The notes beneath the pieces are model-generated. The model was given only the letters and a program-made list of their open reading frames with translations, made no database searches and had not been told where the DNA came from. The position numbers were made by a program, and so were the translations under genes. From Sulfuricurvum sp. (lineage in GTDB: Bacteria; Campylobacterota; Campylobacteria; Campylobacterales; Sulfurimonadaceae), in contig JAGXFL010000012.1 of assembly GCA_024637295.1 (NCBI GenBank), forward strand, positions 1-64,000: a DNA stretch of 64,000 nucleotides, read 5' to 3'. The number at the start of each line of letters is the position of its first letter. Within the stretch, counting starts at the first letter, position 1. Positions 14,028-21,693 of the stretch are shown piece by piece.

Positions 14028-14537
14028 GTGACAACATACTCTTTAAAAGCCATTTTATCAACATTTGCTGATGCGAATGGAAAAAAACGGACGATTTTTA
14101 ATTTAGGCCCCATTGGCGGAATTAGCAGTAATGCCGTCAAGTTGTTTTTTATCTCATTGCCTTTTATAGAGTATGCCCTTATTTTTAATTCCTATGTTTT
14201 TAATGCACTGGGCATTGCGCAATGCATTGTTTTGTACATTGTATTTTTATCGATTGTGATGATTATGATTTTCTTGATTAGCTGGAAAATTAAAAACAGC
14301 GTGATTAAAAGAATAACCCCAAGTTGGGAAAAATACTTTGAAAAAATCAATCTTAGCATGCTTTTGTCATCTGGTAGAACACCCTACAGCCAATTTTTCG
14401 AGTTTTATTCCAAAGGGATAAAAGAAAACAAAACTGAGGAAGAATTGCATCGTTATTTGTTAAATTCATTTAAAACAATGGAAGAGGAAAACAAAGAGTT
14501 AATTGAAGCTATGATAAAAGATAACAAGTTCAATTAG
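14028..14537 (+). CDS. Unrecognised membrane protein with two helices
   Basis: I do not recognise the family. The GTG start is supported by AAGGA 7 bases upstream. The 169-residue protein has a soluble N-terminus with GKKRTIFNLGPIGGIS, two adjacent membrane helices (about residues 45-63 and 68-88), and a charged helical tail rich in Glu and Lys (KENKTEEELHRYL, KTMEEENKELIEAMIKDN). It stands alone between the oxidase operon and the thrS promoter. Its base composition is AT-rich compared with thrS. Confidence 0.7.
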   Translation: MTTYSLKAILSTFADANGKKRTIFNLGPIGGISSNAVKLFFISLPFIEYALIFNSYVFNALGIAQCIVLYIVFLSIVMIMIFLISWKIKNSVIKRITPSWEKYFEKINLSMLLSSGRTPYSQFFEFYSKGIKENKTEEELHRYLLNSFKTMEEENKELIEAMIKDNKFN

Positions 14538-17698: not shown

Positions 17699-17941
17699 TT
17701 ATTTAACTATCTTATACCCTTTTTTCTCCAAACACTCTTTACATTCAACACTGATGGTTGCTGTTGATGCTTTGTTCGCATCGTTGAGATCATAGTAGCG
17801 GCATGCTGAAAAATCAGTTTTGGCACGAGTTTCATCAATTCCATCAGGGCATATCATCCCATTGATCATTAATTGCTTGTTTGCGCAACCGCTGAGTAGT
17901 ATGATGGTGGTGATAGCCCCTAAAAATAGAGATTTTTTCAT
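17699..17941 (-). CDS. Small cysteine-rich lipoprotein
   Basis: I do not recognise the family. Starting at the Met of MKKSLFLGAITTIILLSGC gives 80 residues; AAGGAA lies upstream, and the 30 extra codons of open frame before it look non-coding. The lipobox LSGC predicts cleavage by LspA and lipidation of Cys19. The mature part has four more cysteines: one in GMICPDG, one in FSACRYY and a CxxC in VECKECLEKKGYK. The cysteines could form disulfides or bind metal in the periplasm. Confidence 0.8.
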   Translation of the reverse strand: MKKSLFLGAITTIILLSGCANKQLMINGMICPDGIDETRAKTDFSACRYYDLNDANKASTATISVECKECLEKKGYKIVK

Positions 17942-18104
17942 AATTAGTGTTCCTTTTTGAGTAAACTTTCGAATAGATAGTGCTAATTGAGATTTGTGAA
18001 TAACCCTGATTCTTATGTGATTTCCAGACAAAAGATTCGGACTTTCTTATCTATTTTGCTATATTATAACACTATATAAGGATTAGAAGCTTAACGGAGG
18101 GTAG

Positions 18105-18155
18105 TTGATAACAAAAGCTAAACAACGCCAATTAAATATGGAGATTAAAATTTGA
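18105..18155 (+). CDS. Possible 16-residue leader peptide before the HEPN-like gene
   Basis: A TTG-started frame encodes MITKAKQRQLNMEIKI. A GGAGG ribosome site lies at 18096-18100, four bases before the TTG, and the TGA stop overlaps the TTG start of the next gene. This arrangement suggests translational coupling. It could also be chance or the remains of an N-terminal part of the next gene. Confidence 0.3.
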   Translation: MITKAKQRQLNMEIKI

Positions 18156-18622
18156 GAATGCATTTATGTTCGCGAGGGTTGGATATTTATCAAATAGATG
18201 ATTGCTATCAAATAGTTGATCAAATAGGGAATAAAGTAGTGCTAGATTCAATTAATGAAGGAATATTGCTCGAACAATTTAATCTTAGATTGATTGAGGA
18301 TAAAATCTTCAATGCACTTATCAAACTTAGAAATGACCTTGTCCATAATACTGGTATACTCGAATTTGAACGAAATTGCTATATTGGATTCGCAACGCCA
18401 TGTGTAAATGAAAATAAATTAGCCTATTTTTATATCCCATTTAGAGATATTGATGATAGAGGAGAAGCAATAAAACTGCATGGACGAAGATTTTTCAATT
18501 CGCAAGAAAATGATATAGATGTATTTTTAAGTGATGTTATAAAGACTATGAAGCTCTTTGTCGGTGATTTCCAAAGTTATGTATTGAGCGAACTCAATAC
18601 AAAATGTTTATTGGCTGATTAA
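18152..18622 (+). CDS. Unknown small protein with a HEPN-type RNDLVH motif
   Basis: The 156-residue protein starts at TTG 18152, with GGAG 8 bases upstream (ATG 18158 is the alternative). A helical stretch ends in LIKLRNDLVHNTG, where Arg60, Asn61 and His65 match the Rx4-6H motif of HEPN ribonucleases, with the usual polar residue after Arg. A second helical block with VFLSDVIKTMKLFVGDF follows, as in a four-helix HEPN fold. There is no MNT nucleotidyltransferase or other antitoxin nearby. Codons are visibly AT-rich compared with neighbours, suggesting acquired DNA. The gene overlaps the 3' end of thyX by 15 bases. Confidence 0.6.
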   Translation: MRMHLCSRGLDIYQIDDCYQIVDQIGNKVVLDSINEGILLEQFNLRLIEDKIFNALIKLRNDLVHNTGILEFERNCYIGFATPCVNENKLAYFYIPFRDIDDRGEAIKLHGRRFFNSQENDIDVFLSDVIKTMKLFVGDFQSYVLSELNTKCLLAD

Positions 18623-19450
18623 ATCCCTCATAGCTTCAGCAGTTTTTCTGATTTCCCATTGAGCGTGTTCATCTAATCGAAGCTTGAAGTAATTAGCAAG
18701 CTGCGTAGGCATGAATCCTCCCCATATTTGAGTATAGGCAGCCTGAGGTATGATTCTACGCGCTTCTTGAGGTTTAACACCGCTCTCAATGGCATTCATA
18801 TAATGTTCAACGCATAAGTCGATAATTTTTTGGGTATCGAAGTTGTTAGTAGTGATCGGAACCATTTTTTCACTAATGTAAAAATCAAATGGAACCCGTT
18901 TTCCTGAGACGTATCTTCGTGAAAGTTCTTGCCAATTGACTCGATGACGAACCATTTGTGAACGTGTTGGTAAGTCAACTTTGTATAAAAATACATGAAA
19001 GTGCTTTCGGATGATTTCCGCTTCTTCAAGGGTATTGTAAATTTGTCTGATATCAAAGCTATATCCATCTTTTTCGTTTTCAAAATCATAAACGATTGCT
19101 CGATAGTTTGTTAGTAAGTAGTTTCCATCTTCAACGACTTCTCCAAATTTTTTGACATTACTGTATTCTTTTTGAAGAAGTTCTTTGTGTTTAGGATCAT
19201 GGTAGTCAAGCAATACAGGGACAAATTCAAAGGAGCTGGAAGGAAGCCCCATGGATTCCGCCATGAGACGATTATAGAGGGCTTCACTACCTAATGCTTT
19301 TGGAGACTGATAACAGATCGAAGCAACTTGAGTGATAGCTAATATACGGTTTTCTTCAGAAGTGTTAGCTAGAGAGAAATCCCATTTTTCTACAAAAGCG
19401 ATATTATCTCCAAAGACATTCTCTTGAGTACCTATTTTTGTAATTGACAT
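18608..19450 (-). CDS. thyX: Flavin-dependent thymidylate synthase
   Basis: ThyX makes dTMP from dUMP using FAD and methylenetetrahydrofolate. The 280-residue protein shows FEFVPVLLDYH, a NYRAIVYDFENEKDG segment, and the signature region QMVRHRVNWQELSRRYVSG. The usual signature is RHR followed by seven residues and Ser; here only six residues separate RHR and Ser (RHRVNWQELS). The end (IPQAAYTQIWGGFMPTQLANYFKLR) matches the typical LP-x-x-x-x-T-x-x-x-x-x-x-N-x-R-x-L region in outline. Thymidylate synthesis is the most likely role despite the variant motif. Confidence 0.85.
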   Translation of the reverse strand: MSITKIGTQENVFGDNIAFVEKWDFSLANTSEENRILAITQVASICYQSPKALGSEALYNRLMAESMGLPSSSFEFVPVLLDYHDPKHKELLQKEYSNVKKFGEVVEDGNYLLTNYRAIVYDFENEKDGYSFDIRQIYNTLEEAEIIRKHFHVFLYKVDLPTRSQMVRHRVNWQELSRRYVSGKRVPFDFYISEKMVPITTNNFDTQKIIDLCVEHYMNAIESGVKPQEARRIIPQAAYTQIWGGFMPTQLANYFKLRLDEHAQWEIRKTAEAMRDLISQ

Positions 19451-19513
19451 GGGCGCTTCCTACTGAAGATTTGTTAAAAAGTATAGCGAAGATGGGATTA
19501 AAAAAGAATGGGT

Positions 19514-19540: not shown

Positions 19541-21693
19541 ATAACGAAAACGTGAGGAACGATAAGTGGGTATTTCTTCATTTTTCGGTAAATATGTTTT
19601 CGAACCACTTGGCGTAGATCATTTTCTAGTGCTTTTGGATTTTCAATCAGGCCCGGCTTGAGGTTGATAAGGAAATGTTCAAGAACATCTTCCATCTCAG
19701 CAGCAAACGCTTTATCGTTACGATCAGCCACAAGTCCGAAGCTGGTTACAAGAGGTTTTGAGAGTAAACGAGAATCAGCAGTGCTGACTTGTGCTACTAG
19801 GACAACCATCCCCTCGCTCGCCATTTTTTGACGGTCGATGACGATGTCATCTTCGATCTGGTGATTGTTTTGGTTGTCAATATAAGTCTTACCGGTTTTA
19901 ACGGTTTTCGATTTACGCATCATTTTACTGCTGACTTCGATACAGTCACCATCACTCATTAGTAGAATATTGCGTTCTGGAACGCCACAGCTGATTGCCG
20001 TATCGCGATGTTTCATGATGTGGTTGTATTCACCATGAACCGGCAAGAAGAATTTTGGATTTGTGAGACGTAACATGAGCTTTTGCTCTTCCATGCTTGC
20101 GTGCCCTGATACGTGAATATCACGATCATTAGCAACTTTTGCACCAGCACGTTGTAGATAGTTCAGCATCCCTGAAATGGATCCTTCATTACCCGGAATT
20201 GCACGAGCGGAGAGAACGATCAAATCGGTTGGTTTGATCTTGATATGGCGATGTTCGCCGATAGCCATACGGAAGAGGGCTGAACTTGGTTCTCCCTGGC
20301 TCCCTGTTGTGACGATCAAAACATCTTTGTCGTTCATGCGGTTTGCTTCTTCGGCATCTACAAAAATGTTCTTTGGAAGCTTGATGTATTCATACTGCAT
20401 TGCGATTTCAAGGTTACGTTCCATAGATCGTCCGATAACACAGATCTTACGGTTACATTTTATGCCGTATTGTATCGCTTGGTAAACACGGTGTATATTT
20501 GAACTGAAGGTAGACATAATGATACGTCCCTCAGCCTTGGAGAAAATACGGTCAAATCCAGGAGCAACTGCAAGCTCACTTGGAGTCCACTCTTTGTTAT
20601 AGGAGTTGGTAGAATCACTTAAGAGACATAATACCCCTTTTTCACCGTAGTGTGCAAGACGGTGAATATCTGCTGTATAACCATCAACAGGGGTGAAATC
20701 AATTTTAAAGTCACCGGTATGGATTACCGTTCCCGCTTTGGTTGTGATTGCCAATGAAGATGAATCAATGATTGAGTGAGTCATGTGCATCCACTCGATA
20801 TCAAAATCGTTACCGATTCGGTATACTTGACGCTTTACGATTGGATTGAAATAACGACGGAAATCACGCATGTGGTGTTCGTCGAATTTGTTTCCGATCA
20901 TAGCAAGTGGAAGTGGTGTTCCGTAGATTGGGAACTGCATCTCTTTGAAGAAATACGGTACGGCACCAATGTGGTCTTCATGTGCGTGAGTGATGATGAT
21001 CGCCACAATTTTCTTACGGATTTCACGCAAGTAGGTGAAGTCAGGGACCAAGATATCAACACCGTGCATCTCTTCGTTAGGGAAACTCATTCCAATATCA
21101 ATAATAATCGCTTCATTTTCGGTTTCAATAACCGTAATGTTTCCACCGATTTCACCTAATCCACCAAGTGGGGTGATCTTGATTTTTTCATTGTTATCTA
21201 AATTGAGTTTAAGATGCGGATTAAGACGATTTTTGTGCACTTCTTGATTTTTTAATACAAAGTCACGCAAGTTTGTGTCGATTGGGCTACTTCCTGAGCC
21301 ACGACGACCGCCACGACCACCACCACTACGTTGTGGACGTGCATTGTTTTCGCTTTCAGTTGATAGATCGGTCGCGCTATCGCTAGGAGCTGGATTGCGT
21401 ATCAAATGATTGGTGCGAGGTGGCTGGTTATCGTTGCGTCCATTACGGTTGTCTTGACGCGGAGGACGGTTATCCTGTCTTGGAGGGCGATTGTCTTGAC
21501 GCGGAGGACGGTTATCCTGTCTTGGAGGACGATTGTCTTGCCCTTCTCTTGGGGCACCTTCTTCAGTACTTCCCTCAGGACGGTTGGCGTTTCTTGGTCT
21601 AAATGGTCTTCGATTGTCGTTACGTGGAGGGCGGTTTTCGCCTTGTGGACGGGTGTCAGCTGGTGCTTGAGATTCTGTGTGTTCGTCTGCCAT
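19537..21693 (-). CDS. rnj: Ribonuclease J with a long repeat-rich N-terminal extension
   Basis: RNase J is the main 5'-3' exo- and endoribonuclease in many bacteria lacking RNase E, and in Helicobacter it works with a DEAD-box helicase. The 718-residue protein has a metallo-beta-lactamase core with the zinc motif THAHEDHIGAV, GTPLPLAMI, IHTGDFKIDF and the beta-CASP part (MSTFSSNIHRVYQ, TTGSQGEP, SGHASMEEQKLML, PVHGEYNHIMKH). The first 170 or so residues are an unstructured Arg, Asn, Gln and Pro-rich extension containing four DNRPPRQ repeats and an RGG-like stretch. Such a basic tail probably binds RNA or partners. Confidence 0.95.
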   Translation of the reverse strand: MADEHTESQAPADTRPQGENRPPRNDNRRPFRPRNANRPEGSTEEGAPREGQDNRPPRQDNRPPRQDNRPPRQDNRPPRQDNRNGRNDNQPPRTNHLIRNPAPSDSATDLSTESENNARPQRSGGGRGGRRGSGSSPIDTNLRDFVLKNQEVHKNRLNPHLKLNLDNNEKIKITPLGGLGEIGGNITVIETENEAIIIDIGMSFPNEEMHGVDILVPDFTYLREIRKKIVAIIITHAHEDHIGAVPYFFKEMQFPIYGTPLPLAMIGNKFDEHHMRDFRRYFNPIVKRQVYRIGNDFDIEWMHMTHSIIDSSSLAITTKAGTVIHTGDFKIDFTPVDGYTADIHRLAHYGEKGVLCLLSDSTNSYNKEWTPSELAVAPGFDRIFSKAEGRIIMSTFSSNIHRVYQAIQYGIKCNRKICVIGRSMERNLEIAMQYEYIKLPKNIFVDAEEANRMNDKDVLIVTTGSQGEPSSALFRMAIGEHRHIKIKPTDLIVLSARAIPGNEGSISGMLNYLQRAGAKVANDRDIHVSGHASMEEQKLMLRLTNPKFFLPVHGEYNHIMKHRDTAISCGVPERNILLMSDGDCIEVSSKMMRKSKTVKTGKTYIDNQNNHQIEDDIVIDRQKMASEGMVVLVAQVSTADSRLLSKPLVTSFGLVADRNDKAFAAEMEDVLEHFLINLKPGLIENPKALENDLRQVVRKHIYRKMKKYPLIVPHVFVM
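21446..21540 (-). repeat. Tandem 42-bp repeat inside rnj
   Basis: Two 21-base variants, one containing GTCTTGACGCGGAGGA and one containing ATCCTGTCTTGGAGG, alternate to make a 42-base higher-order unit present slightly more than twice. Each 21-base half encodes DNRPPRQ. The near-identity at DNA level indicates recent duplication and likely copy-number variation between strains. Confidence 0.85.

Follow-up and report, generated by a model that had tools for sequence, protein, structure and literature searches.

An orphan open reading frame (ORF) of 156 codons lies in Sulfuricurvum sp. inside a tract in which the common thyX gene of the genus has been exchanged for a distant version, and this genomic context is the new result of the present analysis. 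We regard the ORF as a genuine accessory gene, rich in AT and acquired horizontally, and the reading that we prefer, at a probability of around 40%, is that it travelled as a passenger of the thyX replacement and codes for a small, divergent or reduced, solitary RNase of the HEPN type, of the toxin or abortive-infection kind.

The orphan gene and its neighbours

The window, meaning the whole stretch of DNA that was analysed, comprises 64,000 nucleotides (contig JAGXFL010000012.1), and the features of the locus are the following.

17699–17941, reverse strand: small putative lipoprotein gene, 80 aa, matched in 34 of 34 genus loci
17939–17980, reverse strand: 42-bp tail of a common-type Sulfuricurvum thyX, running through the lipoprotein ATG
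17984–19480, no strand: imported tract of around 1.5 kb holding the ORF and thyX, ends approximate, homology to the three nearest relatives unmeasurable
18105–18155, forward strand: candidate 16-residue peptide frame with a TTG start, its stop overlapping the ORF start, proposed from position
18152–18622, forward strand: HEPN-like orphan ORF, 156 aa, TTG start, R60-N61...H65 motif
18329–18346, forward strand: RNDLVH codons (residues 60–65), inside a weak PF18735 match
18580–18601, no strand: hairpin in the 3' end of the ORF, foldable also in the probable relic of genome G016, possible thyX terminator
18608–19450, reverse strand: thyX of a rare, Arcobacteraceae-like type, its 3' end overlapping that of the ORF by 15 bp, tail to tail

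The initial annotation had described a solitary gene of foreign look in a low-GC patch, coding for a 156-residue protein with the motif RNDLVH, and these points were borne out. The protein is encoded at 18152–18622 (forward strand) and carries the motif as R60-N61-D-L-V-H65; the range beginning at 18105 that was first given corresponds to the start of the peptide frame, and an in-frame upstream extension of the ORF from 18152 is blocked by a TAA one codon ahead of the TTG start. The ORF has a GC content of 0.308, against a mean of 0.43 for the 40 non-overlapping window ORFs of at least 200 aa (z = -4.5), and the low-GC patch in which it lies is a 0.6-kb part of the imported tract of around 1.5 kb. 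Its GC at the three codon positions (0.446, 0.248 and 0.229; GC3 z = -3.7 against the same 40 ORFs) looks coding-like, of an AT-rich gene type, and ORFs of at least 156 aa appeared in 3 of 5000 Markov-1 simulations of the region 17942–18625. When the six frames were scored by window codon usage, that of the ORF came out on top, with a value of around -0.03 that is below those of all 40 window ORFs (minimum 0.11); this low score fits a foreign origin and is no independent proof of coding. Near-repeats of ATCAAATAG are found in the 5' part of the ORF, at 18186–18227.

The product of the neighbouring thyX was recognized by the Thy1 model PF02511 with 85.2 bits (cut-off 24.8), and the 80-aa lipoprotein showed no Pfam match at E <= 0.01. 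Further neighbours were named from sequence recognition, and we take them to be rplT, rnj, infC, ksgA and thrS; rplT is present in 40 of the 41 genus genomes. Elsewhere in the window, a 169-aa ORF before thrS (14028–14537), in a bin with a GC of 0.345, likewise lacks a Pfam match at E <= 0.01.

The imported tract

Across the genus, 34 loci were compared; they come from 31 genomes, with two loci each from the own genome, G012 and G035, and the ORF was found in the own genome only. The common thyX is carried by 27 of these loci, where the frame that bears the C-terminus of this thyX stops at -2 to +11 bp from the computed lipoprotein start, and shares around 24–31% with the thyX of the window over short stretches. 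The rare type is present in 4 of 41 genus genomes and, in a phylum sample, in 21 of 397 genomes: the own one, G012 and 19 of family f9, with identities of 70–79% to the f9 genes. The thyX of the window is 90% identical to that of a Sulfuricurvum MAG contig and 70% to that of an Arcobacter cryaerophilus contig, and from these similarities the groups carrying the rare type would be Sulfuricurvum and the Arcobacteraceae (f9). In G012 and G035 the rare thyX ends at +4 relative to the computed lipoprotein start, and in the other genus loci inspected, save G016, thyX directly adjoins or overlaps the lipoprotein gene.

Comparison with the nearest relatives (G030, G031 and G021) gave identities of 94–97% in the rplT bins, 81–83% in the lipoprotein bin and 82–90% in most of rnj (0.71–0.77 near 21400), and identity was not measurable from around 17897 to 19480. 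With G016, the three thyX bins are 85–88% identical, the rplT bins 0.82–0.92 and the bins of rnj and downstream 72–85%, with one at 0.89, so that thyX resembles its G016 counterpart somewhat more closely than most backbone bins do theirs. The sequences show clearly that thyX has been replaced in comparison with the nearest relatives, and they favour, by a modest contrast, a transfer between the lineages of G000 and G016. In a xenologous replacement a gene is swapped in place for a distant version; here the common thyX was likewise exchanged at the same site for a distant version, with the difference that an orphan gene lies within the replaced tract.

A remnant of a common-type thyX is seen at the lipoprotein side. 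This 42-bp tail corresponds to the terminal part of the common thyX in locus L039 at the same offset, with a score of 59 that none of 200 shuffles reached. This comparison covered 29 of the 34 loci, the two own loci being excluded and L008, L018 and L019 being left out because their computed start is not ATG. All 200 shuffles were beaten by 20 of the 29 loci, among them L034, whose thyX is of the rare type and whose match spans just 24 bp; the nearest relatives stayed below that mark, their scores being reached by 13 (L011), 5 (L015) and 2 (L012) of the 200 shuffles. The tail is thus of the common type, though not in the version of the nearest relatives, and it may have arrived together with the tract.

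In G016, which has the rare thyX, 58 bp past the thyX end align with the 3' end of the ORF, with 49 of the 58 identical and a frameshift. A DNA search of the 41 genus genomes with 17984–18607 recovered this stretch at E 1.7e-9. Its 9 substitutions are distributed 3/1/5 over codon positions 1/2/3, a number too small for proof that the stretch once coded. The stretch is, from its alignment, a probable frameshifted relic of the ORF 3' end; the hairpin could be conserved as a thyX terminator without the ORF, and therefore the relic is good, not conclusive, evidence. Matches of the same DNA search in G026 and G029 (E 1.1e-4 and 6.8e-4) lie in frames of other genes, presumably phosphoesterase-like and molybdopterin-enzyme-like, and were taken as chance.

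Search for relatives

Whole-genome searches with the ORF gave matches in 1 of 60, 5 of 397, 10 of 104 (the family of G342, E <= 0.1) and 5 of 228 genomes (own family); these sets overlap, and the own genome is the single true match in the sets of 60, 397 and 228. The 19 other, weak matches (4, 11 and 4 in the 397, G342-family and own-family sets) were rejected for lack of the motif: read on the strand of the match, they show no Rx4-6H within the matched part and no R[NDH]x3H anywhere in the frame, and 6 contain internal stops. The strongest of them, L116 (E 4.3e-4), sits in what we take to be a HypF-like frame. Peptide scans of public genome contigs and viral contigs detected no relative of the ORF, and with tblastn none was accepted among plasmids and phages, where two phage records appeared at E 5 and 9. 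Around the 19 Arcobacteraceae-type thyX loci, the stop-to-stop frames of at least 60 residues, together 31,543 residues, contained no R[NDH]x3H, and tblastn with the ORF in the same neighbourhoods gave weak matches, the best at E 0.06. Literature searches found nothing on Sulfuricurvum together with thyX, and those on Sulfuricurvum and HEPN returned papers of which the three listed are unrelated, as judged by title.

Motif, profiles and predicted fold

The HEPN superfamily is described, in the available text of PMC3710099, as a four-helix bundle with Rx4-6H at the end of helix 3, with N, D or H after the R, and, in many families but not all, an acidic residue in helix 2, typically within Ex3[KR]. 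The stretch R60-N61-D-L-V-H65 agrees with this motif, with N after R, and no Ex3[KR] was found in the ORF sequence upstream of residue 60. At the level of profiles, PF18735 (HEPN_RiboL-PSP) matched residues 40–67 at E = 0.027, with 14.8 bits against a Pfam cut-off of 28.4 and starting at profile position 136 of 191, and PF24406 matched residues 40–85, spanning the motif, at E 0.018, also below its Pfam cut-off. NCBIfam gave LegK7 at E 0.054, with 11.7 bits where the cut-off is 1000, and the best PDB matches were also LegK7 (E = 0.28–0.31), with N in place of R60. The PHROG family of unknown function phrog_31026 matched at E 0.0097 from its position 209 of 317 and gave 1 match when sought in 298 genomes. 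No model with a curated cut-off in Pfam or NCBIfam reaches the protein; neither NCBIfam nor PADLOC contributed a HEPN match, and PADLOC gave no match at all.

Two single-sequence AlphaFold runs, with 156 and 144 residues, produced models of low confidence (mean pLDDT 38.5 and 40.9), both with helices at around 18–35 and 45–67, a beta hairpin at around 77–83 and 90–96, and helical structure towards the C-terminus, which the first run shows in pieces and the second as a single long helix (around 120–149). The motif falls close to the end of the second helix in both, and the 38 or so residues ahead of this helix leave space for one helix, not two. In these models the placement of the motif is suggestive of the end of HEPN helix 3, with one upstream helix seemingly missing. 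Foldseek returned, for the first model, 67 matches at E <= 10 and none at E <= 0.001. The fold prediction proposed as a check in the initial annotation yielded, at this low confidence, the motif-bearing helix but not the HEPN four-helix fold.

The short N-terminal part admits that the ORF is a truncated, decaying remnant of a longer HEPN gene, non-functional after loss of the N-terminal helices and hitchhiking with thyX. The late starts of the PF18735 and phrog_31026 matches within their profiles point in this direction, as does the frameshifted G016 sequence, where a 3' piece alone is left. The same is suggested by the genus members of PF18735, found at E <= 0.001 in 8 loci (L108–L115) from 7 of 41 genomes, 4 of them over the cut-off and none being the own genome: in all 8 the motif lies 145–189 residues into the stop-to-stop frame, against residue 60 in the ORF. 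On the other hand, the 156 codons are fully open behind a plausible start and keep an intact codon-position GC pattern, and we consider such decay rather unlikely, although it is a serious rival to a HEPN-type RNase.

Equally serious, and unlikely, is that the protein is an orphan of another, non-HEPN fold bearing RNxxxH by chance, in line with the unreached curated cut-offs and the low pLDDT. Chance readily produces the loose motif: among 100,000 shuffles of the ORF protein, Rx4-6H occurred in 41%. R[NDH]x3H was present in 3.2% of them and also in 4 of the 40 proteins from the window, longer sequences that total 17,176 letters. What is rare is the tight pattern hRNxhhH, chosen post hoc, which 0.09% of the shuffles and none of the 40 window proteins contain. 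Against a fortuitous motif, the hydrophobic context LRNDLVH agrees with the motifs of the 8 genus PF18735 loci, all of them R[NH]xxxH and of similar form (e.g., RNLIVH, RNQIVH, RNTLAH), and R[NDH]x3H is missing from all 19 frames with weak chance matches. In a MAFFT alignment of the ORF with three genus HEPN proteins, the motifs failed to align.

Taken with the sub-threshold PF18735 and PF24406 matches over the motif, the motif form and the helix placement count weakly for HEPN, so that the HEPN-like label of the initial annotation keeps some support, tempered by the unreached cut-offs and the single helix before the motif helix. Compared with the HEPN RNases in the available text of PMC3710099, for which PF18735 is the nearest model, the ORF product is alike in RN-x3-H, in its hydrophobic context and, in the low-confidence models, in a motif near a predicted helix end; it differs in scoring below cut-off, in a far shorter N-terminal part and in lacking the upstream Ex3[KR]. 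Those RNases are four-helix bundles, whereas the ORF product is represented by its sequence and by low-confidence models.

Antitoxin partner

No known antitoxin partner was found next to the ORF, as anticipated from the first inspection. In particular, no adjacent MNT nucleotidyltransferase gene was recognized, the flanking genes being those of the putative lipoprotein and thyX, and this sets the ORF apart from the HEPN/MNT pairs described in the available parts of PMC7641770 and PMC4621449, which it resembles in being a small protein with an R...H motif. The coupled 16-residue peptide noted earlier exists as a 16-codon frame whose stop overlaps the ORF start (TGA/TTG), with a Shine-Dalgarno-like GGAGG merely around 4 nt from its TTG, but its antitoxin role has nothing beyond position in its favour.

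An AbiF-like protein neutralized by an associated RNA is reported in the accessible text of PMC12373285, and therefore RNA partners of toxic Abi proteins exist. The likeness to the ORF would be a toxic protein that has no protein antitoxin encoded next to it; by contrast, on both strands the 210 bp upstream of the ORF show no more stable folding than shuffled sequence (z = 0.85 and 1.24), the upstream region has no Rfam match at gathering score, and PADLOC does not match. An RNA antitoxin is unsupported by these results, and a toxin-antitoxin pair of the ORF with either the peptide, in spite of the overlap, or an upstream RNA, in spite of the AbiF-like precedent, is very improbable.

Origin and role of the orphan gene

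The allele difference at thyX and the tract are direct observations, and the rest of our preferred reading is conditional. An Arcobacteraceae-type thyX occupies the position of the common one, between rnj and the lipoprotein gene, and the ORF would have arrived with it in one event. The ORF product would be a small divergent or reduced HEPN-type protein, with R60, N61 and H65 as a putative metal-independent RNase centre, predicted from the motif. It would act alone, as an RNase toxin or an abortive-infection RNase, kept silent by weak or conditional expression and not by a dedicated antitoxin; for the putative RNase, this combination of solitary toxin role and silencing through expression appears the most likely. 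The probable G016 relic and the absence of the ORF elsewhere in the compared genus genomes agree with a dispensable conflict gene. The thyX identity to G016 (0.85–0.88), slightly above that of most backbone bins, counts against the passenger reading.

It is highly improbable that the putative RNase toxin is tied to the imported thyX by transcripts running past the hairpin that act as its antisense silencer, in which case loss of the foreign thyX or phage shut-off of host transcription would release the toxin, and an essential-type gene would have been replaced by a tract that stabilises itself.

If the passenger gene does code for a HEPN RNase, it would show how far HEPN can be reduced, and that this fast-evolving toxin class reaches past current models. 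The locus is in any event a fairly well delimited case of an orphan inside the replacement of a nucleotide-metabolism gene, and the probable relic in another species (G016) suggests turnover.
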